Shown piece by piece: positions 3,603-47,300 of a DNA stretch of 64,000 nt. The notes beneath the pieces were generated by a model that worked only from the letters and a program-made list of their open reading frames with translations, searched no databases and was not told the origin of the DNA. Location of the stretch: contig BDIU01000089.1 of the NCBI GenBank assembly GCA_002118135.1, positions 62,001 through 126,000 of the forward strand. The letters are read 5' to 3'. The translations under genes were made by a program, and so were the position numbers. Each line of letters starts with the position of its first letter. Within the stretch, counting starts at the first letter, position 1. This DNA is from Trebouxia sp. TZW2008. Lineage: Eukaryota > Chlorophyta > Trebouxiophyceae > Trebouxiales > Trebouxiaceae.

Positions 3603-6600
3603 TCACTGCAATGGCACCTCTGCAGCAGCTGAAGATGCCTGTTGCTGTGCGACGCAAGTGGCAATGGCAAGTGCATCAATGTGGTGTGGGCCACTGGCAA
3701 TGACTGCACGAGCATACTGCATGCGGGTCCACACCTGCAACGCAGCATTCACTGTCAGATAAGGCAGCTGACTGTATTGCAATTGCAGCTCAAGTTGATG
3801 CAATGATCAAGTTCCCACGGTTGCTGACTTAAAACCGCATGCTTGCATCCTTCGTTGCAGGCAAAGCTGCTTGTCAGCCTGGTCAAATTCAGATCTGAAG
3901 CTCTATCCAGATTGTGATGCATAGAGATGAAGCGCACATTAAGCCAGCTGAGTCCACAGCTCATGAGTTTCACAAGCATGAACACTGGCTGCATGCTCTG
4001 TCTGGAACAAGCATGCTTTTGGGTCTGGGGTACATGCACATCAAAGCAGCATCATATGAACCCCTACTGAATTGTGCAGGTCACACCTAGGTCAAATCAC
4101 ATGTGCAAGAAACAAAACAGAAAGCATGTGCTGTCTGCATGTGGCACACAGGTATGGCAAGGCAAACTTGTGTGTGTCTCAGCTACAGAGAAGTCGAAAC
4201 GCTCATTAGCTTTGTGCAATGACAATCATGATGATTCATGTGGTTACGCACCTTGACAAAGATCTGCTGATACAGCTCCAGCCATATATCCTGGCCTTTG
4301 CGTAGGTTGGCTTTCAGATCTTGCAGTCTCTGACTGTCCTTGGCCAATTCCGGTTGCACATCCTTGTCAGCCACATCATGTGTTGTACACTGCAGTCACA
4401 CCATGCATCAGACCAAGCATGACAGTCACTGAAAGTGTATTTAGCCTATCAAAGCAGTATCTGGGCCAGTATACGATTGCAGCATGAGCGCTGTTTCTTG
4501 CTATGCTTTGACTGTTTTGTCTGTCATGCTGTGCGCTTCTGCAGATGCAAAGGTGGCTACAGGGAAGTTGCATGCTGGTGCAGTTCATCAGGCGCAAGGG
4601 TGCACATCTTTGCAGCATTCAGGAAAGGATTGTGCTGCAGCCAACAAAAGCAAGTGAAATGGCTTCTTGTCAGTTGCATGCATGTGCGCTTCATTGAGTG
4701 CAAGGGCTCACAACATTCTTGCAGCATGCACAAATGCCATGTGAGCTGCATCTTGCAGGCCAAGATAGGCGCCTTCATGTGAATTGCATGCTAATGAGCA
4801 TGCACTTCACCAGGCTCAAGAGTTCACAGCACTTTTACAGCATATACAAATGCCGTTTGTGGTGCGGCCTACAGACGCAAGTGAGGTCGTGTTGCTTGTG
4901 ACTGAGACAGTGTGTCGCACTACTACAGTTTTGTCTTGATGTAATGACTGCATTCAATCTTGATAACAATGGTCCTGACATCAAAGTGTCCTCACTCAGA
5001 AGCAACAGTGCAGTCACAAAGCAGGGAGTACTTCTCAACGGCTGAGTCCTTACAACGAGATTGCCTGCAATTATGAGGTTACTGTATAGCATCAAGTGCG
5101 GTGTAAACAAAGTTGTTCAGATGCAGCAAGAATGGTGCTCACCTGGGCAATGGCGCTGCAAATCTGATGCCAATGCGCTTGATTTGCTGCTTGCTTTGCA
5201 AAGCTCACTGAGCGCAACCTGACCATTTCAGTCTTCTGGTCATCTGTGAGTTGCAGACTATTCTGCGGCACCAGGGTGGTATCAGAAGTTGCACAGGGTC
5301 TGGTGTGTGCATGACTGGACTCAAGAGCTGCGTTGAGGCAGCTGCATTGCTTCAGACAACTGTATCAACTTGTTCAAAGGAATGACAGTGCACCAGGGTG
5401 AGCAGCACTCCTGATGCTGACTGTTGTATGCTTGCTGACAATTTCAATGCAAAGCAACTGCAAATGCATCTAAACTTGTATATGAAACAAGGTCTTGGAA
5501 GTTGCCAAGGTGAAGCTTTGCTGATGCGAGCATGCATAAAAGTTAGGCAAAACACTTGCTGCACAAGAATGGCGCCTGCTGCGCTGCTGTGATGCTTGCC
5601 TGGAAACGACTGCTAAAAAGGCTCAAACAAATGCACAGACAGCAGGGCATTTGCAGCCCTGAGTCAAGAGACGTACAGTGACAGCTTGCCAGTGCTCTGG
5701 CATGCGGTATAGCAGATCGCTGGTGTCCCAGTCTTCAGGATCAATGTTCACCATATAAAGCTTTCTCAAGTTGTCTGCATTGCCAAGTATAGTCTCCTTG
5801 ATGAAGAAGCCCTGCAAGGCATAGCACACCAGGTTGATTTCTGCTGCTGATGATCATGACGCTCCTGTTCATGTGCTGTCCTAGTTACTTAGCATATAAA
5901 CCTTTCTTAAGTTGTGTGCATTGCCAAGTGTAGTCTCCTAAAGAAGAAGCCCTGCAGAGCATAGAGATGCACAGTTGAAGATTACAGCTTTGCTTTGCAA
6001 AAGAGAAGAGGCGAGCAGGGTAGGAAGAGCATAGACATTGTATATCGCCTGAAGAGCTGTCAGAGCATGAGCAAATGCTTGCTGCTCCATCATGACATTC
6101 GTGCCATTACGCTGTTCAATATTAAGCATATATCAGCAACAGGTGGATGGCAAGAGCTACATTCACTTCTTGAATCATCTGATGATGCACCTGTTTTACC
6201 TAAAGAAGCAATATGCACAGGAAGCATACCTTAACCAAACCCACCTAGCTTTGAGTAACTGACAGCACTGCTCAATTTGCATGCAGTGAGCTGCCTTTAG
6301 CCATACAGCTGCTGTCAAGTAAATGTCAGCGGCTGCTTGCACCTGCTGCTGATGTCAGGGACATAGAGCATGCGCAGGGTGGGTACTAGACATACCAAGG
6401 TGAGGCACGCCTTCTCAAGCTCAGCGTCCAACTGAGCACCTGTTCCACCCCGATCAAGTCGGTCCACAACAGACTTCACTCTGCTGACCATCGCAGCATA
6501 TACAGCATTGACCTCGCTTGGCTGTGCTTGGATTGCTGGCCATGCGACAGGAAGTGAGGTCTTGCCAGGCTGCGATGATTGCTGCTGTTGAGACAAAGCT

Positions 6601-8300: not shown

Positions 8301-9993
8301 ATGGCTGCGCCGAGTACGCTTCGGCGAGTTGCAAAATCCAAAATGACCGTCGTGGTCAGCCTTTGTCTGTTGGCCATTGTTTGCACAGCCTGGTACTCCT
8401 CAGCACGGCTCAAGAGAAGCATCCTAGAAACAGCCACTCTGAGCAACAAATTCATATGGGGCAAAGCAAGGGCGTGCCCGCTCGAGTACTCGAGGCACAG
8501 GTAAACAAGCACAACATATGACACATGTCTGGCAAGCTTGTGCCCCCGTCTCAGGCATACAGGCTTTTCACTCTTGGAGTTCAGCAAACATGACACATTG
8601 TTGGATTTTAGTTATGCAGACATCAGGACATTCAAGAAGAAGCCATACATGGTTGGTGGCAATCAGGAGCCCAACTGCAGAAATTGCTTGATAGATGATG
8701 GCTTGGCAGGTGAGCCTGCTATTGCCCAGTGTCCATGACTCAGTGATGTAACTGTACTGGCCTAGCAGCAGCCATGGGTCTTATGGCATGCATCATTCCA
8801 AAGGTACAACTGGCTGTACTTTGTGTCCACATTTGGCATTGTCTGTTGACGACCCTGTTGAGTTCACAGGACAGCAAAGTAGTTTTCATGATTCATAAAA
8901 CCAAACCCTGTTCTTGAATGCTTGCAAGCAGCTGCTCTCGATGCCAAACAAACATTAGGCCTGCGCTGTCAGCAAGTGTCTGGCTGCAGGCTACTGCAAA
9001 CGGCTGACATGCCCATACGAAGAGCAAAGGGACTTTTTGGAGCATCTGATCACTAGGGCAGAAATGGGGGCACCAGGCTATGAAGCTATGCTGACAATGA
9101 CCCCATGTGACTGGTGGCCACTGCTGCAAAACAGAACGCTGTGGCTTGTGGGTGACTCCCTGTCTCAGGAGTTCATGAAGGCTTTTCAGTGCTTCATGTA
9201 CGAGTTCTGGGATCTGGACATGGTTGACCTCAAGCATCGTGTTGTGGAGAACGACTTTGTCAGGGAGAAGGTTCGCCTGGGCTGGTGCGCAAACCTGATC
9301 AACGGCGCACGTATTTGTCATCACAGAGTCAATGATGCTCCTGAGTACACAGCCGTGCTGCCATACTTCTACAAAGGGCTGACAGGCAAGCGTAACGACA
9401 TAGTCATGATGAGTACTGGCATGTGGAGTAATGATGTGGACACATACAGCAGCAGGCTCAGCACATTTGCGCAGTACTACAAGCTGCATAAACAGGAGCT
9501 GCCGTACTTTGTATGGCGTGACAGCTCGCCTCAGTTCTTTCATACGCCCACTGGAGATTTTGGCGGGTCAGTGCATGCAGTCTGTCAGCCAATTGGTTTT
9601 CCCACTGGGGGTGTTACTTTGGACAGACAGAATGCTCTTGTCAGTGACTTTGACATTGCACCTCAGCTGAAGATTGTGCATGAGGGCGGATGGCGAAATC
9701 AGCTCAGCAGACCTGTCATGACAGCTCTTGGCATCCCAATCATTGAGACCTGGAACAGATCAGTGCCCATTTGGCAGTACCACAAGAACGCACATGAGGA
9801 TCCAAACCATCATGACTGTACACACTGGTGTCATCCCAGTGCATATGCAATCTGGATGTTTGAGTGTCTGGCCAAGCTTCAAGAGCTGGAAGCTGATATT
9901 GCGAAACACATGAAAAGAATGCCTAGTCAGGCACAGTTGAATGACTTAGACATGACTGCCGGTACAGAGCATATAGTGGTGGAGCCCTTCTGA
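8301..9993 (+). CDS. TBL/PC-esterase family protein (452 aa, membrane-anchored)
   Basis: Exons 8301-8500, 8555-8709 and 8990-9993; phases 2 then 1 match and the total is 1359 nt. The N-terminus has a single hydrophobic segment (MTVVVSLCLLAIVCTAWYSS) after a short basic stretch, a type II Golgi-style anchor. The lumenal domain has Cys residues spread as in TBL proteins, the block LWLVGDSLSQEF (GDS nucleophile motif) and, near the end, DCTHWCHPSAYAIWMFE, matching the DxxH motif that supplies the other catalytic residues. Known TBL proteins O-acetylate or de-acetylate wall polysaccharides in the Golgi. A role on the algal wall or extracellular glycans is likely, but the substrate is not predictable. 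Intron 1 is only 54 bp. It sits between two bZIP paralogues. Confidence 0.85.
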
Positions 9994-10862
9994 TCAATTT
10001 GCCCTCTCTGTTATGCCCTTATGCGTGCTTCAACATATGAACGCCTGCAAATTGTGGCTGTCAAGTGGTGTGTGAGTAGCAGCAAGATCATGCATGTCTT
10101 TTTATGAATTGCCCACCTAAGTCTACTGCTTTGTATACCAAATGCTGCTTTGATGCAGTGCAGGGCTTGTGTCATCGCCTCTCAGGTTTTAGATAGCTTG
10201 GTATGCATTTCATTCAGGGCGCCATCATTGGTCAGCTGAACGTTGAGTTTGAGTTGTAGCATTGGCTTCAGGTGAAAGAGTTTGCCGCTCTTATAGGCAC
10301 AAAGCCAGCAGCAGGTTTGAAGCATCAGCACGAAGCTCTTCTGCCTGTTGAGACATGAAGCATCAGCAGGACCTCACTATAGCCTTCTGCCTTTTAAGCT
10401 TGCAAATTTGAGAGCTTGCAATCCAAGACTGTGATCATGAACATGGACATTGCAATTCCACAGGCTCTTTCATTACTGCTGAATTTCTGCGTACCCCCTG
10501 CAAGGGCTCTTTGCGCGGCAAGTTAAGCAAGTCCTGCTTCGGTGGCAAAGGGTCTGCAGAGTCAGCTGAGCTGTAGCCGCTGTGTTGTGCCAAGTCTACC
10601 ACCATGGTGCAAAGCTAGACTGCCCTAGCGTCATGCCAAAAGCACATGTGCATTCAGCAGCCAATGCAGCTATTCTGATTACATATCACATGACTAAAAT
10701 GTGAGTGCAAACTTCGCAGTTAGGCAGAAGGGCACCCTGCGAGATCGATGATCAGATTTGCGCAGCGCACAACCCAAACACTGCTTGCAAGCAGCTACGC
10801 GAGCTGATTGACGAAAGCAGCACGTGCGGGGAATGAGACTGCCATAGAGTGTTGCCGGCTGG
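9994..10862. other. Gene-free interval upstream of bZIP-2
   Basis: It must contain the TBL 3' UTR and the bZIP-2 promoter. No coding exon or repeat array is visible. Confidence 0.45.
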
Positions 10863-13800
10863 ATGCTGCAAACATCGACCGGGCCTCCGCAAGACCACGA
10901 TCGTACAACTGACTCGCTGGACGACCTAGATCGCCTGCTCAGCAACACCGATAACTTTACTGAATTCGTGACGACGCCGAATGATGGCTCGCTGCAAACG
11001 CCAGAGGCAAGAGAAGCAGGGCCTCGGCTCGCTCGTGAGGAGGGGACAGCACCAAGCGCGTCATTGCAGAACAGGAAGCAGCGTGCCCTGGACAAAAGCC
11101 GAGAGGCTCAGAAGCGCTTCAGGCAGCGCCAAAGAGTACGCCTTATGCTTGTCCGTAACTTTGCGCATACGAAGCACGAAGTACAAGGCTTCTTGTCCTG
11201 ACTGGCGGGTTCCGGAAACAAGTTCTGCACCATGCCCTGCGCAGGTGAGACTGGAAACGATACAGACCCAACTTGATGATACTACTAGGCAATTGCGAGA
11301 CCTTCAGATACAGCAACAGCAGCTGCAAACTCGAAACATCTTGCTCGAAAAGGTTGCTCAGCTCAGTAAGGAGCAAACAGCCGACGACTATCTAGCTTGG
11401 CAGGTATATCATCAAGCGTTGTCACCTCCATTTGTTCTGCTCATGACCTGACAAATGGACTGTGCCTGAAAAGGCAGCAGCAGACCACCTCAGTAGAACA
11501 CCCTGAACTGACTTCCTTTCAACTTATGTGGTACAGAACAAGCAAGCTGAATTGGACTTCAGCTGCGCACATACAGAACAGACGCCCCAGGGCTTCACCC
11601 TGACGCTCACAATTTTTGGACAAAAAGAGAGCAAGGCATGCAGAACTGTGAGCAAGATGTCCCTGACAGAGCTTGCAGCACTGTGGACGGTATGACCTCA
11701 ATTCACAGTGCATCATTTGATGCTCTGCATGCTATCTATGCTGCCTGCCATTGTTGCTGCATGCTTGCGTGCATGATTCATGTGCCATGCACGGACTGTC
11801 TCAGGGTAAAGGCTTACAAGCAAAGGACACTAGGGATGTCTCACAACTTGAACTGTTGTCAGAACCTGTATACAGGCTTGAGCAGTGGCATCTACAGCTG
11901 CACCTTGAAGTGCTGTCTCAATGCTGACACAGATGCTGCTCCAGGTCCCGCAGCTTGGCATTGATTTTGAATTCAGGGGCTCTTGTATCTGCTGACGTGC
12001 ACAGCAGTGCATCAAAGCTTGTTCAGCACGCCACTAGGACTTGCTGACATCCATGCTGTGGCATAAGGTTGTAGCAAATCTTGTTCAGCAGATACCACAA
12101 GTACCTGCTTGACTCTGTCTGTGCTATGCTATCTATGATGGTAGACATGCTGTATCTATCATTTCATCATGCTACTGTGCTGTGCTATGATACCTTGCTA
12201 TGCTGTGCGCACATGTGCAAGCTTGGCAAGTGCATGCTGAGCTTGCAGATGCTAACATGATGCTACGGCACTAGCAACGCACATCAAATTGCATGCAGCA
12301 GACCACAACTGCCTGCTGAAATTGATGCTATGACACACAAGTATATGTGCAGCTTGGTGAGTGCCTACTGAGCTTGCAGCAAGACAGAAATGGCGGAGCG
12401 CGGCCAGTGCTGGATCTGTGGGTGACAGAGGACATTGCCCTGATATGCTGCGTGCGCATATACAATCCCCAGTTCATGAAAGCTACAAAAAACCCATGCA
12501 TGCTTTGGCATAGAAGCACACAGCACCTGCTGACGTTGACATGCTGTGACACAGGAGTACATGCGCAAGCTGGGCAAGTGCCTATTGAGCTTACAGCAAG
12601 ACAAAAACGGTGGAGCCCGACCACTGCTGGACCTCTGGGTGGCAGAGGCTATTGCCCTCATATGTTGCGTGAGGGTGTACAACCCAGAGTTCATGAAAGC
12701 TATAGACTCAACAGCAATGAATGGCAGTGCAGCAGCCAGACCAGGCCACCCTCTGCTCATGCAGCATCTGGTCAGTATTCCTGCTGTAGTTTACATTTTG
12801 TGCAAGTGGCCCATGCAAAGCACAATCTGGTTTGCTGGTACATCCCTGAGTTCATAAAAGCTATAGACTCGACAGCGATGAATGGCAGCGCAGCAGTGAG
12901 ACCCAGCCTCCTCTTGAGTGAACCCCATGCCATCATGAAAGCTATAGACTCTACTGCAATGATATACTGTGCAGCAGCGAGGCCTGGCCACCCCTTGCTT
13001 ATGCAGCATCTGGGTAGCTCAGCAGTTGGTGTACTTGCCTACCCTCATCTACTGATGCTGCTGCTGCGCACGATGGTTTGCAGCTTGGTACAGTAGAATC
13101 AGCACACATGCTGTGCTACCATTTTTTTTTAATGTCAGCATCATGCAATCAAAGTTGCATCTCTGGGAGTGCAGTGCAATCGAAAGATCTGTGTTCCACT
13201 GACTGCAGCACAGTTCACAGATGTGCTGCCAGACTGCAAGTCCACTTTGGTCTTTGCAAAACGCAGGCATGTGCAGGCCCTACTGCAGTGTACTGATGCA
13301 CAGCTTCAGGATGGCTTGTACCTAAGCCTCATAGCAGCTGCCAAAGCAATGTTGTGATTGTATGTGCAGGAGTCACTACAGTTTACTGATGCTCAGCTTC
13401 AGAGCGGCTTGCACTTGCACCGCATACCAGCTGTTGGACTGCACGTCAAATATGTACTTGCAGCAATTGGGAGCATGCACCTCAGAATTCATCAATATGA
13501 TTACGTGCCACTGGACGTGCAGGAGCTATTGCAGTTCACTGATGCACAGCTTCAGGACGGCTTGTATCTGCACCGCATACCAGCAGCAGCATGCAGCAAG
13601 AATTGCAATGTGTCAAATGTATGTGGTTGCACATGCAGGAGCTACTACAGTTTACTGACGCACAGCTTCAGGACGGCTTGTACCTGCGCCGCATAGCAGC
13701 TGCTAGAGCAGCTGAGCTTGCCCGGCAGCGGCATGCAGCTACACAGCAGCTGCTGTCACAAAGCTCTTCCAAGCAGCATCCAAGTGACCACCTGGCAGAC

Positions 13801-16216
13801 TCCAAAGCATCTTCTGAGAAGCTGCGCCTCATTGGGCTCGAGGAGTACAAGCTCCATGGCATTGTGACTGATGCTCTTTTCAACGGGGTAAGCATTGATT
13901 TGATCATTGCACACAAGTCATAGAGTGTGTATGCATTGTGACTGATTGGATTGGAAGAATACCAGCTTCATGGGATTGTGACTGATGCCCTTTTCAGTGG
14001 GGTGCGCTTCCATTGCATCTTAGCCATAGATCATTGAATTTCAGTCATACAGTTCGCATGCATGGTGACTGCCCTGTGCAATGGGCTGTGTAGTCCCGGC
14101 AACTTAGCTATGTACTTTTACTGCTTGCAAGACCTAAAGGCTTTTACTGAGAAGCTGCAAATGATTGACTTGGAGGCGTACAGGCTCCATGGCATTGTGA
14201 CTGATGCCCTTTTCAACGGGGTAGGCTTTCACTGTTACATACATGTTGCATATTACATATCATGTACTTTATATCGCAATCTGTGTACCGTACAGGCTGG
14301 TACAGAGATGCGATACTTCAATCTTCGGGTATTGCTGTCGTGTATTTGCAGCACACGAGGCATAGAGTGTGTATGCATTGTCAGTGATGCAAGCATTCTC
14401 TGTCCAACAGGAATCATGTGATTACCGCGTTTCAACCAAGTAGAAATGTTGCTCACAGATTACAGGTCATGCATAACGGTGCAGCTGCACTGGTCTGTTG
14501 TGGTGCTGTTTCTGCTATGTCCCATACTTGAGCAGGTATGTGGCACAGCAGAAATTGCCTCACAAGGCTGGAATGAAAGCTTCAATGGCAAGGCGAACAC
14601 ATGTCTTGACAAGCTGCAGTGACACAATGGGGCTAGTCCACATGTACCCCTTCCTGTCAGATCCACTCGAGTACCTGGAGTTGATGGCAGAAAGGCATGG
14701 CCAGAAAGATGCACATTTTGAAGCAAAGAATGTGAGACAATGTCCTGCTTTCGTGCAGATCTTCACAAGCATACAGAACGCCATGGGGCTAGTGCACATG
14801 TACCCCTTCCTACCAGATCCACTAGAGTACTTGGAGTTGATAGCAGAGCGTCAGGGGCACAAAGACGCACCAACAGCCAACATAGCAATTGAGGCAGACT
14901 GGCAAACACTGCTGGCATACTGTGCTAAGGTCACTTCAGTGGACATCTGCGAGCACATGCCCCTTAGCAACTTTATGCCAGGTGTTGGACCTGCCAACAC
15001 AACTGTCAGTGCAGACGCCGGCGCAGCTGCTGTGCCTTCAAGCAGCCCAGTGAGTCACGACCCATCCATGGGTCAAAGATCAGTCCATTTCACCCCAGAT
15101 TCTGCCACACGACAGGCAGTTTTCCAATCTACGCAGAGTTATAGTCAGAACGGGAACAGTGATCACAGCATGGCGCCAAACCAAGAGCCTGCATGGAGTC
15201 AGTACAGTCAAGTGCCCCAAACTGCCTTTAGCCCCATGGCTCGTCAGCCCTCCAGACAGGCATCAAGTCAGGCCAGCATGAGCATGGTTCCAGAGCATGC
15301 CATACTGCCGAACAACGGCATGGTACCGGAGCATGCCATGCTGCGCCAGGGGTCAAATGGCATATTTCCGGAGCACGCCATGCTGCGCCAGGGGTCAAAT
15401 GGCATGATTCCAGAGCATGGTATGGTTCCAGAGCATGCCATGCTGAGACAGGGGTCAAATGGCATGGTTCCAGAGCACGCCTTACCAAGACAGGGGTTGC
15501 AGCAGCTTGTGGTTCCGGAGCATCCCATGCTGCGGCATGAATCACAGCATGGCGTGCCAGGACAGATGCAGATGCAGTACCAGTTGCCATACAGCCAGGC
15601 TGGGCAGCATGCGCCTGTGCAGATGATGACAAATGGGCTGATCCCTGTCCACAACCCTCTCTTTCAGATGGGTTCTCACAGTATGCATCAGAGCACAATG
15701 CCAGACCACATGCAGATGCATGCTCACTTGCCACTTCATCAGTTGCCAATGCAAAGGCAGTTAAGCGCACCATCATCCCCCAGCATGCAAGCCAGTATGC
15801 CATATATCACAGCACAGCAGCGTTTGAATTCAAATCAGCCTCGCAACGGGTACATGAGTCAGCACCAAGCAGCTGCTGGACACATGGCGCACAGTCAGCC
15901 TTCTGGGCTTCTGCCACCCTGGATTGGGCAGAACCTTGCCTCAGCATACGCTGTGCCTTCGAGCGAACTGGAGCACCTGACCCCTCGTCAACCCTCCCTT
16001 CGCGCCCCCTCGACACCAGGAAGTCAAAATGGGGCCCCAAGCCCTAGGACAGTCTACCCAACAGCAGCCATGAGATCACAGCAGATATCTTCAGGCCAAG
16101 CCCCGCCAGTCACAATTTCCGGCAACACAGTACAAGCTCCCTTGGCTCCGTTTTTGAATGAACAGCTTAAGCGCATGCTGGCCCAAAGCAATCCCAGCGC
16201 ACGCAGGGGCTTCTGA
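10863..16216 (+). CDS. bZIP transcription factor 2 (about 835 aa), paralogue of bZIP-1
   Basis: Core exons: 10863-11135, 11245-11403, 11537-11689, 12555-12770, 13639-13887 and 14759-16216, totalling 2508 nt, all introns phase 0. The basic region reads DKSREAQKRFRQRQR; the normally invariant Asn is Ser (AGC). Exon 2, like exon 2 of bZIP-1, is 159 nt and carries the zipper (I, L, L, L, L in heptad steps). Later exons encode the same C-terminal helices as bZIP-1: LQFTDAQLQDGLYLRR, LEEYKLHGIVTDALFNG and MGLVHMYPFLPDPLEY. The last exon adds about 400 aa of Gln/Met/Pro-rich low-complexity tail with a tandem repeat at 15283-15545. Introns 3 to 5 are packed with partial copies of the flanking exons. 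The last exon may instead start near 14550 and include a second copy of its first block. It is presumably nuclear; DNA binding could be altered by the Ser. Confidence 0.8.
12211..12500 (+). repeat. Acceptor-side echoes of bZIP-2 exon 4
   Basis: Two upstream copies of the 5' part of the exon at 12555-12770. The first (12211-12250) is short: CATGTGCAAGCTTGGCAAG against CATGCGCAAGCTGGGCAAG. The second (about 12326-12490) covers nearly 150 bases, coding for GARPVLDLWVTEDIALICC against GARPLLDLWVAEAIALICC in the true exon. In the second copy the acceptor CAG has become CAC. Confidence 0.85.
12842..13015 (+). repeat. Donor-side echoes of bZIP-2 exon 4
   Basis: Two downstream copies of the exon's 3' part, both containing AAAGCTATAGACTC (KAIDSTAM). 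The copy at about 12930-13010 runs up to CAGCATCTG like the true exon end, but continues GGTAGC instead of GTCAGT. The copy at 12842-12916 degrades after the same block. Confidence 0.85.
13199..13600 (+). repeat. Acceptor-side echoes of bZIP-2 exon 5
   Basis: Three clear copies start after GTGCAG at about 13270, 13370 and 13521, each coding LQ-[FC]-TDAQLQ-x-GL in phase 0. A fainter one lies at 13199-13240. The first runs into TGA at 13355-13357; the others lose similarity after about 60 bases. The true exon starts at 13639 after CATGCAG. Four acceptors in the same phase therefore compete within 370 bp. Confidence 0.88.
13938..14220 (+). repeat. Donor-side echoes of bZIP-2 exon 5
   Basis: Copies of the exon's 3' part (GIVTDALF-x-G) lie at 13944-14009 (donor GTGCGC) and 14129-14220 (donor GTAGGC), with a shorter relic at 14056-14093. 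The true exon ends at 13887 with GTAAGC. Each long copy keeps a GT directly after GGG. Confidence 0.88.
14607..14758 (+). repeat. Echo of the start of bZIP-2 last exon, with 27-bp in-frame spacer
   Basis: A copy of the MGLVHMYPFL..DPLEYLEL block ends at 14731. Next come 27 bases (14732-14758) that begin GTGAGA and end TGCAG, and then the main copy. The frame stays open from about 14498 through both copies to 16216. The spacer is too short for a normal intron, so a transcript entering upstream would encode both copies in tandem. Confidence 0.8.
15283..15545 (+). repeat. Coding tandem repeat in the bZIP-2 tail
   Basis: About seven imperfect repeats of a Met/Pro/Glu/His unit (consensus MVPEHAMLRQGSNG, 14 aa) are encoded in frame within the last exon. 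Copies differ by substitutions and length changes, as expected from replication slippage in a disordered tail. Confidence 0.85.
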
Positions 16217-17161
16217 CCTCTGCGCAAACTCATGAAACTTTTGAGGGTCAGACATGTTGCGGGTCACTGATCGTCAGACTCCGTGCACCGCAGAAGTGCT
16301 GTTGTGAAAGGCAGACATGCTGCGCATCCCTGGTTGTCAGACTCCATGGACCGCAGAAATGCTGTACCGACATCATACATGGTGTACTCATGGCATGTGG
16401 CCTGACCGCCCTATACAGATAGTTCCAGTTACATCCTTTTCCTGTCACAGCTCAGTGCATGGGGCGCAGATGGCAGCATCTATGACACCCCACCCTTTGA
16501 CATGGTCATCCCAACTTACAGGTTGACAGAAAAGGTGCAAGGCTTGCTTGTACTGCTTTGAGCCTTGCTTGAATCTTGCCTGTGACGAAACACACTGACA
16601 TTGAGACCTGCATGCGCTGTTGTTGTTTTGATGGCACTGTGACAATAAAGTTGCGAATTGTGAACAAGAGTTGAGGAGTCGGAAAGGTCTGTGGGCATTT
16701 TAGGATCAGCGAGCAAGCTTTGCCATGAAATTTGCACTTGATTGCTCACACACGTATACTGTCCCCGGAAGGCCTTTTCTACTGGACAATGGTGCCGAAT
16801 GTCAAACAAGTGCTTGTTGGCACCCGTATTGTGCCGCATGTTTCACTAGCGTGCAGTTAAAATTGTTGAGCACATTAAATTCACAGCCTGGCAGTGTTAT
16901 GAGCTGGGTGTTGCATGTTTGCATGCATGTCCAATGCACATATGCCTGCACAGTTCTTCAAGAGGACACCATCGGTCAGCAAGCAGTACGGGCTAGCCAA
17001 GCTTGTCAGTAGCTCAGACAACGTTGTAAGACAGATGAGACAGTGGCCATCTAGTACTTGCAGTGATTACACGCTGAGCGTATGCTCCGTGATGCTTTGT
17101 CCGTCAGCAGGATGTGCAGTGAGTAGTCGATCGCATCCTGAATGCGCTCGTTGAGCCGGGC
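16217..17161. other. Gene-free interval with a 63-bp tandem duplication
   Basis: Two copies of a 63-bp unit beginning CAGACATG-TGCG lie at 16249-16311 and 16312-16375, probably in the bZIP-2 3' UTR. AATAAA occurs at 16642-16647. The rest should include the promoter of the next gene. I see no exon that can be defended. Confidence 0.5.
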
Positions 17162-18104
17162 ATGTCATTGTCTCTCGCGTCACTCAGCTCCTCGAGACCT
17201 TGCTCAACGCTTGCGAGCAGTCGTCGCGGATCAGCTGCTCGACAAGCAGAACAGCCCCGGGCCTGGCATTCAGCATATGAACACGGACTGATCACAAATC
17301 CGAGTAGACCCGCAACACTTGGCGTAGGGAGCTGGAGGATTGACCCTTACACAGCAAGCCGTATAGCACGCGTTATATGCCGGGCTGCGGATGAGGCCCT
17401 AGAGTTGTCTGAGGACAACGTCGAGCAAGCTCTGCAGGTCTGCACCTTGTTAGGTCAAGATACCCAGTGTCATCGATACGGTACTATCCTCGACGAAAAT
17501 CATCACAATGTGAACTGAGACAATTCATTTGCTTTCAGGATGCACGTGAAGAGCTCATGCAGCTCTTTGATGAAAGTGTGGGCATGACAGGTAAAGGCCT
17601 TGCTTCTTGCTTATAAGCTTGAACAGCTGCTCAAACCATGCCTCACTGTTGATCTACGAGCAATTCATTGTATTCAGTCAAGTCAATCATGAACAGTGAG
17701 TCATTGTAAGCTTACTAAAGCAGCATCTCCAAGACCAGCGTTAGCGTTTTTGAAGAAGCATAACGGCTTACACTGCTCTCTGATTAAGTTGAACAGCATG
17801 TCACCCTGCGCTGTCACTATATAAGATCTGTCTCGGGGCTTCAGCTAACATGAGTGCACACCCGAATGTAACGCTCGCTCAGGCAAAATTCTAACAGCTT
17901 GCACACTCTACTGTCACAGGTACAGTACAGCTAGCAGAGCTGGATGGTCCATTTGTGAGGCTTCGTTTGCAAGGACGGTTTTGGCATAAGAGAGCTGATG
18001 TGTTAGCCAGAGTGGCAGCATACCTCCAGCGGCGCATACCTGACATTTTGGAGATTGACATTGAAGACGAAGCTCAGCTGGATGACAGTGCAGCATCATT
18101 CTAG
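17162..18104 (+). CDS. Conserved green-lineage protein of unknown function, 170 aa, likely plastid-targeted
   Basis: Three exons: 17162-17437, 17539-17590 and 17920-18104 (513 nt, phases 0 and 1). The first about 45 residues are Ser/Ala/Arg-rich with few acids, typical of an algal transit peptide. The middle (DPYTASRIARVICRAADEAL) is helical. The C-terminal block has a strand-turn-strand followed by a helix: ELDGPFVRLRLQGRFWHKR, then VAAYLQRRIPDILEIDIED. This outline recalls the NifU C-terminal domain, where a CxxC normally follows LQG, but here FWH stands in its place and no CxxC exists. Iron-sulfur scaffold function is therefore unlikely. From memory I believe similar proteins exist in plants and algae, but I cannot name them. 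Confidence 0.7.
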
Positions 18105-25299: not shown

Positions 25300-26169
25300 G
25301 ACAGCAAATTTATGCAGACCACTCTGGCGGTACAGGTATGTGCTTACCTATACGGCCATAGAAGACGTGAATAGATATGCTGCCCTATATGATGCAGCAG
25401 TCACAATCTGTTGCCTGGCTGCTAGACCACAAGGGGCAAGCAACTGCTTGTACACACCTGCTCTGAATATTCAGGTAAGCATATCACAGGTCTTGGCTGC
25501 TGTACCATCCATGGCAAACAACTAGCTATGCACACCTGCTGTCACTTTACATCCAGGCACATGACATTTTGAGATTGCTATACCATACTTGGCAATCAAC
25601 TACTACGCAAACCTGCACTGACTGTACAAGGAAGCCCACAGAGCCTTGGCTGCAGTGTTGACACACAGAGTAATTGACTGGTGAAGCCCAGACTTACACT
25701 GTGAACACATGACAGCTTTTGACTGCTGTCTGATACACGGTAAACAAGTAGCTATGCATGCCTGCCCTGGCTGTACAGGTAGGTACAGGGCAGCCTCTGG
25801 CTACCAAGCCATAGAGGGCAAGCATCTGCCTAGCAAGATTGCCCTGGCTGTTCAGGTAAACACAAAATAGGCTTAGCTGCTACACCATGCAGAGCAATGA
25901 CTTCCCCATGCAATCGGCCTTGACAATGTAGGCAAGCACACAACAGCTTTTGACTGCTGTGCTACACTTGGCAACTTGACTGGGCATACACACCTGCTCA
26001 ACATTGTGCAGATCCACAGTCTGCGGCTGAGGTAACAAGATGGCTTCAGTCTGCTGTGCCATGTAGAAGCATGATCTATAATGCAAACCGTTTCATAATT
26101 GTGCAACTGAGGCAGCAGAGTGACTCCAGTCTGCTGTAACATGTGAGACCATTGATCTGTGATGCATAC
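25300..26169 (-). repeat. Donor-side echo array of SAC exon 11
   Basis: Two well-preserved copies of the exon tail lie at 25994-26050 (19 codons, TEAILLPQPQTVDLHNVEQ, phase 0 on both sides) and 26089-26130. Further units, spaced about 70-100 bp, continue to about 25300. Each has GCAG|GTGTGCATA-like donor edges and a GCCAAGTATGGTATAGCAG-like interior on the minus strand. I count roughly ten units. The 57-nt copy could serve as a cassette exon. Confidence 0.75.
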
Positions 26170-29100
26170 CTGCTCAACATTGTGCAGGTCCACATTCTGC
26201 AGCTGGGGCAAGAGAATGGCTTCAGTCTGCTCGCTCCCTGGCGGCCTATGATCCGACAACATGCTGTTGGCAGCCTGGTCATCCAGTGATACTGATTGTG
26301 ACAGTGACTGTGTGCTCTGAGCTAACGATGCTTGTGACAGACTGTTGGAATGTCCGACTGAGTGTGTGAACTGAGGCTCTGTGGTACAGTCTGTCCTTGC
26401 AGTGATGGGCACAGCTGCTGAAGAAGATAGGGAAGAAGAAGGTAGGGAGGCTGGGGGGGCGGCACGTGGGGTGGAGGGGGCGTATGGGGGCTTGCTGAAC
26501 CTTTGCCCTGCAAGGCAGTCATTCCACAATGAGGTTGCCCATCAGCTAATGAGCCCTACAGTCATACTGCTTGTACATAGGACACATAGCATATGAACAT
26601 CACCACACGGACAATTGCAGATGCCCCTCAGCAAAGATCTTGCTTTACTGGGTTTCCTGGGAACGTCAGACTATACTTCTGACGTCCAACAGCACAGGCT
26701 TTGTTTTTTTGCTGTCCTTACAGCAAGCAGTCAGCAGGCCTACCAAGGACTACCTCGGTGGTGCCTACCAATGCAAACATCTTCCTGTTGGTTTTCTCCA
26801 ATTTTCGCAATGCAGCATGTCCGTGCTGAGGTACAAATTGCCCAGGGACAGATTCATGACAAGCACTGCAATTGTTACATTCATAATCTCACTATACCTG
26901 CATGGAGAAAGTAGTCGGAATCCAGCTCCCACAATGCAGCGTGGCCGTGCTGGGGCACGAAGTTGCCCAGGAACAGATTGATGGCGTCCTGCTTTTCGGC
27001 ATCAGTGTAGGCATTGCTGTAGAAGCGGCGGATGGAGGTCATGAGGTCCCTGGACTGGGTTGCTGCTTCCCAATCGCCCCTTTGCCGCTGAAAGAAGGTG
27101 GAATGGGCTTCAGACCCTCCGTACTGCACATACACACACACCAATGAGCTTCAGATCCTCCACGCTGCACACGAGCACTCACAGATGAGGTCGTTGGACT
27201 GTGTTGCTGCCTCCCAGTCGCCCCTTTGCCGCTGAAAGAAGGCAGAGTGGGCCTCAGACCCTCCATACTGCACACACGCGGTCACACATCAAAGCAGATT
27301 TCAGATTCAGACTCTCCCAGAAGTACACAAACACTAAAATATGAGGTCTCTAAACTGGCTCACTGCTTGAAACGCTCCGTACTGCACGCACAGGCTCACA
27401 GATGAGGCAATCATTGCAACAGCGCCTGGAGTGTGCTTCAGACGCGTCATACAGCAGACAGATACGCACACATATGGATGCCAGTGCCATAGCATTTGTA
27501 TCTGAGATTATGTGTGCAGCACTGCATGCAAGAAGGGAACGCAGCAAGGGCTTCCTAGCTATATAACAAGATATCATGATCACTAACAGCTTCTTGCATG
27601 CAAGCAAGCAAGCTTTACCTGTCTTGAGAGAACATTGCCCATGGCTTCATACATGTCCATGAGCTGGCGAGCTGCACTGCTCTGAGCATCTATGGTCGGG
27701 GCATCTGCCAGGCCCAGGGCATGTAGCTGCTGCCCCAGGGCTGTTAGCCCATATGCAAACTGAGCCACATTGGTTCGGTCCAAGCAATCAATGCAGTTGG
27801 TGCGCAGCACGCCATGCTGCAGCTGAACCTTCTGTCCCTATATGCAGACACAGGCTGGAGTTGCACATGACGTCTGCAAGATTTCAGAGTAGACGGCTTT
27901 TGGTTGGTTTACGTCTCAGCAATCAATGCAGTTGGTGCGCAGCACGCCATGCTGCAGCTGGATCTTCTACGCCTGCTTGTAGGCTGATGACACATTTAGT
28001 ATGCACGCCTGCAAGATGATTCCAGCTAGCTGCAAACATGTGAGGATACTCTTTATGTCAAGATGCCCTTTACACAGGCTCAAAGTCAGGCCAAGCTGTC
28101 CAAAAATTGTGAGGTGCAGGCAGGTTCTGGGTGTACTACGCAGTGATGTCGCCTCGGCAGCATACTTGAGCTGCCTTTTTGTGCCCAGTCAAGCAAGTTG
28201 CAGGATCCGCAGCAGATGCAAACTTGCTCAGATGGATACATCATTGCAGAAGCGGGTTCACAAAATTTTCCCAGACACCTGTAGCTTGGCGTCATCTTCA
28301 TGGTGGCTCATGGCAAAAAAGCTGGTGGCTTGCAGGCCCGTCTGAATGACAGCAGCCATGTCTGCAAGGATAAGGGTGCCACGCTGCTTGGCATGGTAGT
28401 TGAAATCCCATGGGATGTACGAGATGCGCTGCTGCTCAGTCTTCTGCACAGGTTGCCAGTCACAGCCTTTCAGTGAATGGTTAGCATATACATTAGCTGT
28501 GTCAAGCAGAATGCAGCTGCATGCAGGGGTAGACTCTGTTCAATTTTGCTGACCCAAAGCGCATGTGAAAGCCTCATCAGCCAACTCAATTTAGTCAGTT
28601 CAAAGTGACTCAAAATTGGCTAGTCAGAGACCTCAAACTATTGGTAAAGTAGTCACTCACACGGAATTGTGTCACCGTGTGCATTTTGCTGGTGCCTGTT
28701 CCATGCTCAGCGCAGCGCTCATTGCTTGGTAGGGGACACAAGCCTCTGCTGATGCACATGCGATCCAGTAAACCCCGGGCTGTCTTTGATGCTTTGTGTA
28801 CTAAGCAATATGCATTCATCCTATCGATGCTGCTGCTAAGCAGAGAGTCTGGCAACAAGCAGCAGTCAAGACTGTACGATTGACCTGTTGATTGATGTAC
28901 GCTATGGCAATGGCAAACTCCTTGCGCAGAATGGTTTCCCTGGGCCGCTTCTCAGCACTTTTGACCAGATTCAGCACCACCACCGGGTGACCATATCTTG
29001 CTGAGATGTCCTGTTGCACAAGGTTGACTCAGTGAACGTCACTGTGCATTGCTGCCTTTGGTTTGCGGAACTTTTCAGAACGTGGACTTGCCTCACATTC

Positions 29101-41345: not shown

Positions 41346-44300
41346 TCAGGAGGGAGTCATCCACTGACGTGCAGCTCTACCACTTTTGACGGCCAGTTTT
41401 GCAGCAATGACTAAGGACGCAGGCATGGCAGTCAGGATTTCAGGAAACTTGTACACCAAATTACGGCCTGCCATAGCTACTTGGTCCAACTCAATACTGC
41501 TGTCCTTCATGTCGCTGAACACTGCAAGAGCTTCAGTCCATCTGTTGTTGTCCTCACAGGCAGCAATGACGCTGCAGTAGACAATCTTGTTAGGCTCGAT
41601 CGCAGCTTCTTTCATTCCCTGCACCCAAGCACAAAACAGGTGTAAATTGCCTTTCTTTTGATATGTCTGGTGTGACATGTATACTTAGTTTGATGATGCA
41701 GAAGCAGACTCCCAAAACTGCACTGACGAGCAAGCTTTGGAAAACGCCCAGATCACACATCGTAGCAACATTCAAGCATTCGTGCCGCAAGAAAACTGGT
41801 GGTCCAAATGGTGCAGCTGCATGCAGCTCTCTGGTGTGACATGTATGGACCAGCATCAAAATGCAGGCGACTTGAAGGGTCGCATTGTCAAGCTTCACAC
41901 CAAATATAGTGCAGCTGTGCCACGAAGTTGGAAGACACGCTCATGAAATCAGCGAAAGAGGACAGCATCTCATTGACATGAGTGCAACCTTGTCCAGGAA
42001 TCATTGACTCACAGTTGGTGATTTCTGGCTTGCTACTGGCATTGACTGTGGCAAACTCAACCGACTAAAACCCAGAAAGCAATGACATGTATGGCGTGTG
42101 AGTTATGTTTATGCCTAACATGCACATTGGCATGACAAATTTTTAACAAGGTTGCAAGTCAGTGGTGCTGGTCATCATCTGTACGACAACTCCTCAATAG
42201 CAGTAATGAGTGACGTCAAGTAGCGATGCCAGCACCACACGTAACATGCATGGCCACAACACAGAGCATACAATACCAACCTCGTATATCTCCAGTGCCT
42301 TGTGCCACTGCCCGCTTTCTCGGCAAGCTGATACAACATTGGTGTAGGTGATCAAGTCTGGGGGACAGGGGCACCTTGGATTATCTGCTGCGCAAGTTTG
42401 CATCCTCTCAAAGACTGCAACTGCCTGCAAGGTGCGCACACGACGCTGAGCCTATACACCTAATTACCTCCTGACAAAAGTTGATGGGCTGGCGGAGAAC
42501 CTGTGACTGACCGTTTTGCTGTCACAAGCAGCTCATGAAAATGCCCAAACGGCATTGGACCCCACTGGTTGTACAAGCTCCAGACATCATGCTCGAAACT
42601 GCCAACATGTCTCGCACAGATGCAATGTAGGGTTGCACATAGCATACACTTGAGCTTTGCCACTAGGCTGCATCACAAGCGTCCAAGTCTGCCAAGTCTG
42701 CCTGATGTTCAATTGCCACAAGACCACAATGCAATGCATATGCAAAACTCAGCACCATCAATCACACGGTGTTGTCATCTTTGTGCCCAATTGCTGAGCC
42801 ATCAATCTTGTCTTTTCCGTTACACGTTTGTCAAAAGCATCGTCAGCCCTGTCTGTGACTCTGGATAACATGCTAACACTGCAATGAGTTCTGCCTGTGA
42901 ATTGCTCACCCCATGCACCTGCAGGCCTGACCTATCATTCTTGTCTTGTCCATCGGGACACATGTACAAAAGCAATATGCCTGACTCCAGTAACATAGCA
43001 GATACTGATGCAGGAAGCAGTCATATGGAACGCTGACGCGTTGCTCCCTCACGATCCGCCTACTCACCACTACCGAGTACGAGGAACGTAAACAGGCAAG
43101 GCAAGTATGACTATAACTGGCATATGGCTGTGGTGTGCTTACCGCATGAAACTGCAGGCCTACACCCAAAGTCTTTATGAGGGCATTGTAAGCTGCTGTG
43201 TTTGGCTGCACGCCCTTGGCCTGCAGCTCCTGTACAATGGTGACAGCCTCCTCCCACTCCCCAACCTACGATTAGTCAGTTCGTCACCTCATTGAAGCAC
43301 TCAACAAGATGTGAGCAGTCACAATCAGAAGGTGAATCACGACAGTCTACCCTCACTCAAATAACAAAGTCGCAAATGTGTTATGAGTGACTCGTCATGC
43401 AACAATGCAACAACAGCTGAAGACGCTGCTCTGCTATGAATACTGTGCAGAACTGCCATGCCAGTTCCGAAGCTGCATTGCAGCTGTAATACTGCTTTGA
43501 TGTTTGTCAGAGGCCAGTGCGGATGACAGACAATAGCTGAAATGCAACGCACAGAACATTTTTTACCAGGGCCACATGCTGCAAAGTAATTCACACCTGC
43601 CTCAAAACGCTTAATCCACATCCACCAGTGTCACATCACACACTATGTTGTGCTACCCAGCCACAAGATATGCTACTGATTGCAAGAGTGCTCGGCACAA
43701 GCAACATACCTTCTCGCAAGCTGTGACGATCCCACACATGGTGAAGACGTCTCCTCGGATGTTCCTGTCAAGCATGTCCCCATATAGTCTCTTGACGTCA
43801 AGGAACATGCCAGCCTTGCCACAGCCAGAAATCAAGGTGTTGTAGGTGTATAGACACGGCCTGACATATCCATGTGTCCTGCGTGCTTCCCGCTCCATCA
43901 TAGTGAAAACCTCCAGTGCTCGCTCAGCTTCATTGCAGCGCTCACATGCGCTCATGAGGGTGTTGAATGACCATGAGTCGGGCTGCACGCCTGCTCGCCT
44001 CATGCCTGCCATACAACAGAGAGCAACCATGAGACGATCCAGAGCATTGTTAAAGCTTTCATTTGCAATCAGCCTGTCTCTTGTGCTTCAACAGGCACCA
44101 GTCAGCATACAGACCGTTCAGACAAGGAAATGCAGATCAAGCAGAAAATGCTATGAGCAAGTTGCAAAAGCAACTAGGAAACAGATCGTCATGTCAAGCA
44201 CAGAAATGAGTTTGTCACATGTCATCTCAACTAGCTTGCCTGGAATCAGCATGGTCAACGCCATCTGGTTCAGCAACAGCTGAAGTTTGGGCACGCATGA

Positions 44301-47300
44301 GCACATCTTGCGAGCAGTGACATGCCAGGTAGAGCTGTTGCTCGAGCCACCTCGTTGCAAAATGATGCATCAGGTGCCTCAAGCAACACGTCTACCTGAT
44401 ATCTCACTTTGGGCAAAGCAAATGCTCACTTGTGCACACCCAAGTGCAAGCACAAGACGGCATGCAAATTGACTGCCCAACGTAATGATGGTTCGCACCA
44501 GCAGCCTGCTAAGGCATTGCTGGCCAAACGCCTGTCCTGTCTGCTGCTGTACAAACACTGTACGCTTGTGAGCTTGTGGGGAAAACTGCCATAGTCTTGC
44601 ACACTACAGTACAAAGCAAGGCTGAGCGTGCTGCAGTACAGCCTGATGTACTGCAGCGCACAACAAGGCTGACGCAGTCGTGCAGCATCACAATATACCA
44701 CAGTATCAGGCAACGCTGAGGTTACTGTGCTAGAGCTCGAGATGCTGCAGCGAAAAGGAAAACTAACTGCTGCAGCCGAACAGACTAAAGTGTGAAGCAA
44801 GCCTGGGCTTACTGAGCCAAACCATATCACAAGACAGCACAAGCTCTCGAGCCACTTCTACTCACAAAGGCTCCCATCTCACAAAGGCTCCCATTATTAC
44901 GCCTAACAACGTAACTTTGTACCCTTTTCTTTTCTTTTCTGTGCTGTCCCTCCCGTTCTTTTCTTTTCCTTTTCTTTTCTTCTCTTCTCTTTTCTGTCTA
45001 CAAGGTAAATCCAAGACTTACTGTTGAAGACTGCCCAGGCCTGCTCCCAATCTTCGCCTTTGGCACAGGCAGCAATGGCAGAGTTGTAGGCCACAACATC
45101 AATCCGAACATCAACAGTATCCATCTCTCTGAAGATCTGCATGGCCCGCTGCCACTGCCCAGCCTTCTGACAAAGGGACATGATGGCAGAGTATGCATGC
45201 GCATTTGGTTTGATGCCTGCATAACAAATACATGTTTTTAGCGATGTGACCCAGCTGATCAATATGAATTGTGAAAGATCATAAATTGTGCTTGGGCTTC
45301 GCACAGCCACACAACTTCTTCAGTCAAGGGCGCAGCAACTCCTGAAATCTGCATGCCCGCTGCCACTGGCCTGCCTCTGACACATGGACATGATAGCTGA
45401 GTATGCCGATAGTCTGGGTTGATGCCTGCATAACAAATGTACGTTTTTGGCGAGCTGATCAATACTATTTGAGAGTTGTCATAGAGCATGCTTGTGCTTT
45501 GCACAGCCACAAAACTGCTTGAGTGAAGCACGCAGCATTTTCCAAAAGATCTGCACGGCCTGCTGCCATTGACCGGCCTTCTGACACAGGGACATGTTAG
45601 TGGAATATGTATGCGCATTTGGTTTGATGCCTGCATGATCAACAGCAAATTTGTGTATAAGGACCTGTCTGCCTTTTGTTCCCAGTTGAGTTGATTCAGT
45701 TTCTGATAGACTTGCATGGATGAAGTTGACTGCATCTTTGCATACCTAGTATATTTTTGAACAAGGACTTTTATGTTTTGCATTCCGAATTGAGTTGGTT
45801 TATTTTCTGACAGACTCGCATACCTAATCACTGGGTTCCACAGCCTGCCTGGCAAGCGTATCAGATGAAGCAAATGCTTCTGTAGAGGACAAAGTATCAC
45901 TGGGCATGTTGTACGTAAGATGCATGTTTTAAATCCAAGTAAGTAACAACAAACAATGGAGCACAACTAGGCTTGAAGTCTTAGCAGTTCACAAGGCACA
46001 AAATACGAGCCAGCACGCAGCAGAGTACTGCGCTGAGAGTACATGTGGCACGATCCACCCTATGTATGAAATTTACAGAGCACAATGATGTCACATGCAA
46101 CTCTAGCACACCTTGATGTTCCACGATTGCAGGCTTGTGCTGCAGGCCTACTACAGTAAACTCTCTTTGTAACGAGTGCGTTGATTACAAAAAAGTTTCC
46201 TTACATCAATCGTCTCTACTCAGAAGCACCACTGTGGTCAGAATGCAGTGCGTGGTTCCCAGTTGCATTGTCCTAACATTGAGAATGTCCTATCTAAAGG
46301 TAACTGTAGTTGCAACCTGCATGTGCAGGGCGCAGTACTCACCATACGATTCCATGTCGCCAAAAACATCGAGGCCTGTCTGCCAATCATTGCCACAAGT
46401 CTGGCAGGCGTTGATGATGGACGTGAAGGTGCGCACATTTGGCTCAAACTGCTGATCTTGGAGATCATCAAAGATTTGCATTACCCTGTTCCAATCCTGA
46501 GCCTTGCCTGCAGTATCAACAATATGCAAGGTAAGTCACTCAAGCATGAGACTCAATTGACCCAAGATGAGGGTCAATTCACCCGAACATGAAGTTTGTT
46601 GACAGTACAGTAACATCTCTTTGTAATTGGTACACTCAATAAAATGACATTGTGCATGCAGGGACAATGCAATTAGGAATGAAGCACTGCATTCTGGCTG
46701 CAGCGACCCGCTGAGTAACGACAACTTGATGTAAAGACAATTTTCTTGGTGGCGAAAGCAGTTGTGACAGAGAGAAGTCACTGCATCAGCAAGCTGGAAT
46801 CATGCAAACTGCAGCATATCAGTAAGACGACAACACATGCAGCTGATGCGCAGCTTTGCTGTTGCCGCTCTGTGCTGCAGATCTGGCAGGCAGGCGTGCA
46901 AAACAGCAGGCCTAAGAAGACACCCAGAAATTTGGGTCACAGTAAGCATGATCAGCTAGAGATAAAGCATGATAACAGTGAAATCAAGCATGATCAAGGC
47001 AGCAGAAGATGTGGGTCAAAGTCTCTGACAAAACAAAGGCAGGAACACTACTGCGGTGCATGGTGGACACACAGGGGTACACAGTAAACTCTCTTTGTAA
47101 GGATGCTCGATGTAGGACATTCTTGATGTAAGGACAACGCCATTGTCGACCTCACCGCACTCTAACTGCAGTGGTCCTTCTGGGTAAGGACAGTTCAATG
47201 TGAGGACAAATTTCTTGACAACCAAAGCAGCCGTTACAAAGACAGTTTACTGCACAGAAAGCACCAATGTGTGCATCAAGCACATTCTACTTGGCTGCCA

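Follow-up and report, generated by a model that had tools for sequence, protein, structure and literature searches.

Partial copies of exon edges in the introns of a Trebouxia gene, and local duplication in a sample of its genome

Partial exon copies at the bZIP-2 locus

An initial annotation of DNA from Trebouxia sp. TZW2008 described a gene, bZIP-2, in which three consecutive exons were each accompanied by truncated relatives in the adjoining introns. The locus raises the question of how such partial copies arise and whether they act as exons. The gene lies in a stretch of 64,000 nt (hereafter, the window; 50.5% GC), and its name is that of the annotation, since Pfam returned for exons 1–2 a bZIP match below threshold only (E 0.3). 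The edges of exons 4, 5 and the last exon were read from the sequence and, in our reading, agree with six protein fragments of relatives (P0001–P0006), most of which continue into the apparent intron at the same points. The partial copies in the introns were confirmed by self-BLAST of the window (E-values as low as 3e-38) and by a scan of positions 9000–17500 with one 100-nt probe per exon edge and 40 shuffles per probe. The scan detected ten clear partial copies, each on the predicted side of its exon, and no clear edge copy on the wrong side of a bZIP-2 exon (Table 1). The claim that 5′ edges are copied only upstream and 3′ edges only downstream therefore held for 10 of 10 copies. The numbers given for exon 4, two copies on either side, were also recovered. 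Three copies were found upstream of exon 5, for which three or four had been proposed, and two of the three proposed downstream of it were significant. The single copy upstream of the last exon was found as described, except that it begins at the first bases of the exon and lacks the acceptor attributed to it. The observation is thus partly confirmed: it is real, with small corrections.

Table 1. Exons and partial exon copies at bZIP-2 (window positions) and in a protein kinase gene of sampled stretch L006
Feature	Position	Strand	Basis and remarks
Exon 4 5′ edge, short copy	12211..12248	+	32/38 identical; edge-probe scan, repeat family D9
Exon 4 5′ edge copy, ~30 nt of upstream intron included	12312..12485	+	80% identity; self-BLAST, alignment, probe scan
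Exon 4, 216 nt, phase 0	12555..12770	+	Sequence reading; relatives P0001, P0003, P0004
Exon 4 3′ part copy, donor not conserved	12838..12914	+	Self-BLAST, block alignment; probe scan 12848–12914
Exon 4 3′ edge copy ending at donor	12933..13013	+	Self-BLAST, block alignment, probe scan
Copy A, exon 5 5′ edge + TGCAG acceptor, score 6.3	13272..13348	+	Self-BLAST, splice scoring, probe scan
Copy B, exon 5 5′ edge + TGCAG acceptor, score 10.8 (real 10.3)	13365..13438	+	Repeat tool, splice scoring, probe scan (13365–13433)
Copy C, exon 5 5′ edge + TGCAG acceptor, score 6.5	13512..13597	+	Repeat tool, splice scoring, probe scan
Exon 5, 249 nt, phase 0	13639..13887	+	Gene model; relatives P0002, P0005
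Copy 1, exon 5 3′ edge + GT donor, score 5.7 (real 8.5)	13942..14015	+	Self-BLAST, probe scan 13942–14003
Copy 2, exon 5 3′ edge + GT donor, score 3.8	14130..14229	+	Repeat tool, probe scan 14147–14229
Last-exon 5′ part copy, without acceptor	14604..14714	+	Self-BLAST; probe scan 14604–14685
Last exon, through stop codon	14759..16216	+	First HMM model; relative P0006
L006 kinase, two downstream 3′ edge + donor copies	4114–4230, 4333–4446		Exon/copy region L006:3916–4452

The longer upstream copy of exon 4, marked by the probe scan at 12325–12422 and widened by self-BLAST to the span in Table 1, has 44 stop-free codons and has lost one base within the first 15 bases of its exon part; a separate scan row above the 95% threshold, at 12471–12485, is its tail. 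In the second downstream copy of exon 4 the donor-like GT is one base off and its donor score is 0.6, versus 6.6 for the real site. Other rows above the 95% threshold were weak: 9169–9183 (14/15), an exon-3 5′ row at 17231–17262 and four exon-3 3′ rows, all scoring only 24–28. These were treated as chance, though the best two slightly beat the shuffles; the best minus-strand scores also passed the threshold (28 for the exon 4 3′ probe, 26 for the exon 5 3′ probe), so that score level is noise. The probes for the edges of exons 1–3 were placed a few bases off. Within the last exon, coding repeats occur at 15285–15544, several at 42-nt spacing. A neighbouring minus-strand gene carries an exon-edge copy pair of 88% identity at 5752–5964.

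An origin of the copies from paralogues was rejected, as a protein search of the same genome gave at most 47% identity away from the locus, versus 66–85% for the copies at the locus. When the 2548-base region was compared with the whole genome (very common words skipped), it matched itself and, through its final copy, the last exon next to it, but nothing else. Copies at unlinked places, as expected of an introner or other dispersed element, were thus not found for the bZIP-2 region.

All introns of the gene had been described as phase 0, with many retained splice sites in the same phase. The lengths of exons 4 and 5 (216 and 249 nt) fit this description, but the exon-5 acceptors upstream do not: use of copies A, B and C would lengthen the exon by 362, 269 and 116 nt, in no case by whole codons. 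With the downstream exon-5 donors the gain would be 114 and 333 nt; the frame is kept, yet stop codons are encountered. The in-frame isoforms envisaged for the exon 4–5 decoys are therefore not borne out, since read-through shifts the frame or runs into stops. This argues against the copies being present or past functional exons, alternative or retired, under protein-level selection, as does the fact that each bZIP-2 copy has a single exon edge and none is a whole exon. The copy of the last exon is more favourable to such a reading: it alone is continuous with its exon in a single open frame, and there an isoform may exist, or the exon itself may be longer.

Local duplications in a 234-kb sample

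The window and 17 stretches of 10 kb from the same genome (L003–L019; genome size 68.5 Mb in 527 contigs) made up a sample of 234 kb. Local duplications less than 2 kb apart numbered 211 in direct and 12 in inverted orientation, and none was detected after shuffling; the spacing was 60–400 nt in 173 of the 211 direct pairs. Such copying is not peculiar to bZIP-2, and the process appears to be genome-wide. Genes were predicted by a self-trained hidden Markov model (HMM) working on sequence alone, which yielded 313 exons and 507 junctions. At bZIP-2 the final model is partly wrong: exons 1–3 were missed, the decoy 12380–12451 was called an exon, exon 4 starts late (at 12597, which we judge wrong) and the last exon was split. 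The sample-wide counts therefore carry gene-model errors.

According to these models, coverage by duplicated tracts was 14.8% in exons and 15.1% in introns, against 7.0% in intergenic sequence, and the 169 tracts lay mostly in predicted genes; the bZIP-2 copies likewise lie within one gene, as in internal (intragenic) duplication. In predicted introns, noncoding pairs had roughly 2.5 times the density that they had between genes (4.3 versus 1.7 per 10 kb). Duplications equally common away from splice junctions had been named as an outcome that would speak against the copying of junction-straddling segments. Exons and introns were indeed covered equally, which argues against the need for a junction-specific process, while junctions themselves were covered more often: 96 fell in duplicated tracts against 59.3 by rotation (1.6-fold; 0/400 rotations) and 95 against 70.4 by random placement within genes (1.35-fold; 0/500). 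This enrichment may be explained by a longer detectability of exon-bearing pairs.

Where one partner was silent, 25 of 32 acceptor cases were upstream and 27 of 30 donor cases downstream, cases being tallied per pair and junction so that arrays enter more than once; 10 of these 62 cases run the opposite way. When both partners had a called junction the polarity was weak, with 23 acceptors upstream against 18 downstream and 21 donors downstream against 14 upstream. Such polarity follows from short-range copying combined with the need for the true exon to stay intact, and a junction-seeking mechanism is not needed; on its own, the polarity does not argue for any special mechanism.

An arrangement like that of bZIP-2 was found in a protein kinase gene of stretch L006 (Pfam Pkinase, 1.1e-54; Table 1). 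Part of its second copy was called an exon by the gene model, and in that copy residues conserved in kinases are altered. In a Vps41 gene (stretch L007) there were several copy pairs, some with reversed polarity, as at the acceptor at 7005; the predicted Vps41 protein had no match in the PDB. In the window, a minus-strand gene at 25986–27968, which encodes LRTNCIDCLDRTN and which we take from this motif to resemble a Sac-type phosphatase, has several exon-edge copies. Also on the minus strand, two predicted genes at 41346–47434 are, by eye, presumably of the pentatricopeptide-repeat type, and self-BLAST pairs 46154–46292 with 47113–47252 as an inverted repeat.

Distinct silent copies covering a junction numbered 66 in the sample, and 47 of the 507 predicted junctions had at least one silent copy over the splice site. 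The GT or AG was intact in 55 of the 66 (27/33 donors and 28/33 acceptors), a retention that functional exons would also show. Three of the six failing donors copy a GC donor; counting these, the dinucleotide was kept in 58/66. The silent copy scored as high as or higher than the real site, ties included, for 17/33 donors and 10/33 acceptors. Because the copies include intronic splice motifs, they derive from DNA or unspliced RNA, not mature mRNA. We infer that the decoys are normally ignored by splicing.

Divergence, geometry and age of the copies

Alignments of exons with their silent partners had mismatches at 289/1937, 237/1958 and 488/1933 of first, second and third codon positions, respectively (14.9, 12.1 and 25.2%), and the neutral comparison gave 832/3632 intron columns (22.9%) and 957/4277 in noncoding pairs (22.4%). 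Divergence at position 2 was thus about half the neutral rate, which fits a constrained exon paired with a free copy and speaks against functional exons; across the sample, silent copies seem to decay near neutrally. The ratio of position 3 to positions 1–2 was 1.65 (bootstrap 1.30–2.15) for pairs reaching into the intron, where we estimate about 1.6 to be expected, 2.03 (1.66–2.52) for edge-bounded pairs and 2.02 (1.58–2.62) for exon-internal pairs, the latter two classes leaning towards more synonymous change than neutral copies would show. A general protein-level constraint on silent copies, suggested by the low pN/pS and the singletons given below, was dropped and kept as an alternative for bZIP-2, as the position-specific divergence points to near neutrality. 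Repeat-induced mutation, which is expected to give a near-total share of transitions, was also rejected: transitions made up 2542 of 4424 mismatches.

The bZIP-2 copies themselves show extra synonymous change. Nine blocks, picked ungapped and with exons shared between them, had 29, 25 and 71 differences at positions 1, 2 and 3 (pN/pS 0.25). Simulated neutral copies reached this synonymous share in 0/150 runs under each of three transition biases, and a copy omega of about 0.4 fitted. Since the blocks are ungapped by choice and share exons, the excess over neutral copies is only suggestive. The claim that only the intact exon is under selection thus applies mainly to the sample as a whole and less well to bZIP-2. 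The raw pN/pS over 97 exon–silent pairs, which are not independent, was 0.37, and singletons of silent copies comprised 215 replacement and 140 synonymous changes, where about 3:1 is expected; we consider both the low pN/pS and the singleton skew to be confounded by sequential births. In a three-way comparison of exon 5 copies, the four private changes of copy C were all synonymous, while those of copy B were mostly replacements (6/8), a contrast which indicates that copies differ in history.

Functional exons would account for the synonymous excess in bZIP-2, for the absence of stops from the 238 copied codons of its nine blocks and for one kinase copy in which third positions hold 17 of 22 mismatches. 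The 16 stops in 2091 compared codons of the sample weigh against them, and, with the frame and edge evidence above, we judge this reading unlikely.

Arrangement was analysed in the 139 of the 211 pairs that are adjacent. Repeated local duplication, as originally proposed, is supported; less so its classical form, a head-to-tail tandem duplication across junctions followed by decay and deletions. Such an origin would explain the 43/139 pairs that abut or overlap and the regular 159–200 nt periods of some arrays, and a known potato duplication also spans an intron–exon boundary (PMC4974935). Among pairs below 15% divergence, however, only 7/49 abut or overlap, so that most young pairs are not arranged head to tail. 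Spacers were compared with flanks in 61 pairs (spacer 25–400 nt, at least 40 aligned bases). The spacer was related to a flank in 13/20 old pairs and in 5 of the 12 pairs below 12% divergence, as head-to-tail duplication would predict, and was unrelated to either flank in the other 7 of the 12. In simulated head-to-tail pairs (acceptor type only, none younger than a median divergence of 6.7%), the true boundary was reached in 319/329 at median divergences of 6.7–14.5%, which also counts against this route. We hold it to be possible but rather doubtful; more often the outcome was copying across a spacer, or duplication from which a part was deleted afterwards.

Alignment ends cluster 0–10 nt outside exon edges (22/156 edges; rotation null 5.0/95). 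Such sharp ends at splice sites would be left by ectopic gene conversion from exons to old copies, refreshing the exon-like part while the intron flanks are lost. A 51-nt pair in the Sac-phosphatase-like gene would suit conversion, being 96% identical with flank similarity that is weak at most (for one flank, a score of 7.5 against a 99% null of 6.5, reached by 4/60 shuffles). Conversion from exons would not, however, account for the spacer of more than 10 nt in 31/43 adjacent noncoding pairs, nor for the fact that only 8–10% of flanks exceed the 95% null in pairs below 22% divergence, against 20% in pairs above it, and we consider it improbable. Beyond their ends, pairs below 22% are thus similar at close to chance level, older ones somewhat more so. 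In the simulation, ends lay near the edge in 10/101 and 21/86 detected pairs of the two oldest classes; part of the pile-up is thus expected at high divergence, although some pairs below 15% show it too. The pile-up might point to exon-bounded copying, although the numbers are small and the gene models our own.

Young pairs were scarce: among 153 pairs of at least 60 nt, one was below 6% divergence and four in total below 9%, against 33 at 15–18%, and 2 of 45 noncoding pairs of at least 40 nt were below 9%. Simulated pairs at median divergences of 6.7–14.5% were detected in 329/330 cases, and younger ones should be easier still to detect. The scarcity points either to a slowing of the copying or to a collapse of identical copies during assembly. 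The shortage of pairs younger than 6–9% would also be expected if divergent haplotypes or strains had been joined in tandem during assembly. The copies, however, are short and frequent, the exon 5 array has four mutually different copies, and the two stretches with printed counts (74 kb) contain no N, all of which makes such an artefact very improbable.

Taken together, the direct bias, the spacing, the polarity, the divergence at position 2, the kinase parallel, the intact dinucleotides and the spaced geometry make it probable that recurrent local copying, genome-wide and filtered by selection on the original exon, has left near-neutral decoys in introns. The copies, with their direct bias, polarity, near-neutral decay across the sample and intact dinucleotides, are observed; the steps behind them would be as follows. 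Short segments, with a median of about 90 aligned bases, would be re-copied repeatedly in direct orientation, mostly 80–400 nt from their source and in the majority of cases with a spacer in between, possibly as breaks or stalled forks are healed by copying nearby DNA. When the source lies over an exon edge, the original exon would keep its function, while the new copy would land in the neighbouring intron and decay there at about the neutral rate. A 5′ edge copy would thus survive upstream and a 3′ edge copy downstream, and selection on the reading frame would act as a filter on a genome-wide duplication process of which the arrays are by-products. The excess of synonymous change in bZIP-2 does not fit neutral copies, and the scarcity of young copies does not fit a steady ongoing process. 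The ends piling up outside exon edges, the weak polarity between called junctions and the within-gene junction enrichment also stand against this explanation. The readings weighed here are not mutually exclusive, and different copies may differ in origin.

Relation to known duplications and to splicing

Internal gene duplications, including parts of exons and introns, were reportedly found to be ubiquitous by Gao and Lynch in 2009. The copies described here resemble them in lying within genes and in combining exon and intron parts; they would differ in forming multi-copy edge arrays with few young copies. In mutually exclusive tandem exons every copy is a complete exon whose two splice sites both work, and both copies are constrained. 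Similar exon sequences are likewise repeated within one intron region here, but each bZIP-2 copy has one edge only; as to constraint on both copies, the evidence is divided between near-neutral divergence in the sample and excess synonymous change in bZIP-2.

Tandem genomic duplication is listed in a review as a demonstrated source of introns (PMC3443670). As in intron gain by duplication of an AGGT-containing segment, extra splice sites arise here from local duplication (PMC3443670, PMC4974935). In that model the exon downstream is the one whose copy opens the new intron; in bZIP-2 the order is the opposite, as the initial annotation had noted and the probe scan bears out, with 5′ copies upstream and 3′ copies downstream. 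In bZIP-2, no new intron was seen with a duplicated AGGT at its borders. The nearest case in the literature is the potato RdRp gene, in which a duplication crosses an intron–exon boundary and the copy is spliced in (PMC4974935). There too the segment runs from the 3′ end of one intron into the 5′ part of the exon that follows, and splice signals are inherited with it. In the potato gene the copy is spliced in with a new intron between the copies, whereas copies of the bZIP-2 type look silent, and the bZIP-2 sequence gave no sign of a new spliced intron between copies. The copies described here also differ from the potato case in lying mostly at a distance and in recurring across the sampled genome. 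A genome-wide report of silent exon-edge arrays in an alga was absent from the matches listed by a search mostly outside the subscription literature, and the word tandem does not occur in PMC11523091 or PMC12712428 (main text). The interpretation first given to the locus is partly supported, and the arrays would best be regarded as a genome-wide, selection-filtered form of known internal gene duplication.

Extrapolated to the whole genome, the 66 junction-covering copies in 234 kb would become about 19,000, provided that the sample is representative. It may tentatively be proposed, with considerable doubt, that direct local copying, now largely quiet and commoner in introns than in intergenic DNA, has left thousands of splice-competent edge decoys, some of them once used in proteins, so that splicing would have to discriminate between near-perfect neighbours. 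Gene finders should take warning, since our own model took a decoy for an exon. Introns may grow from exon material in this way and, if genome-wide, the decoys would constitute a natural experiment on splice-site choice, bearing on first-AG, branch-point and exon-definition rules.
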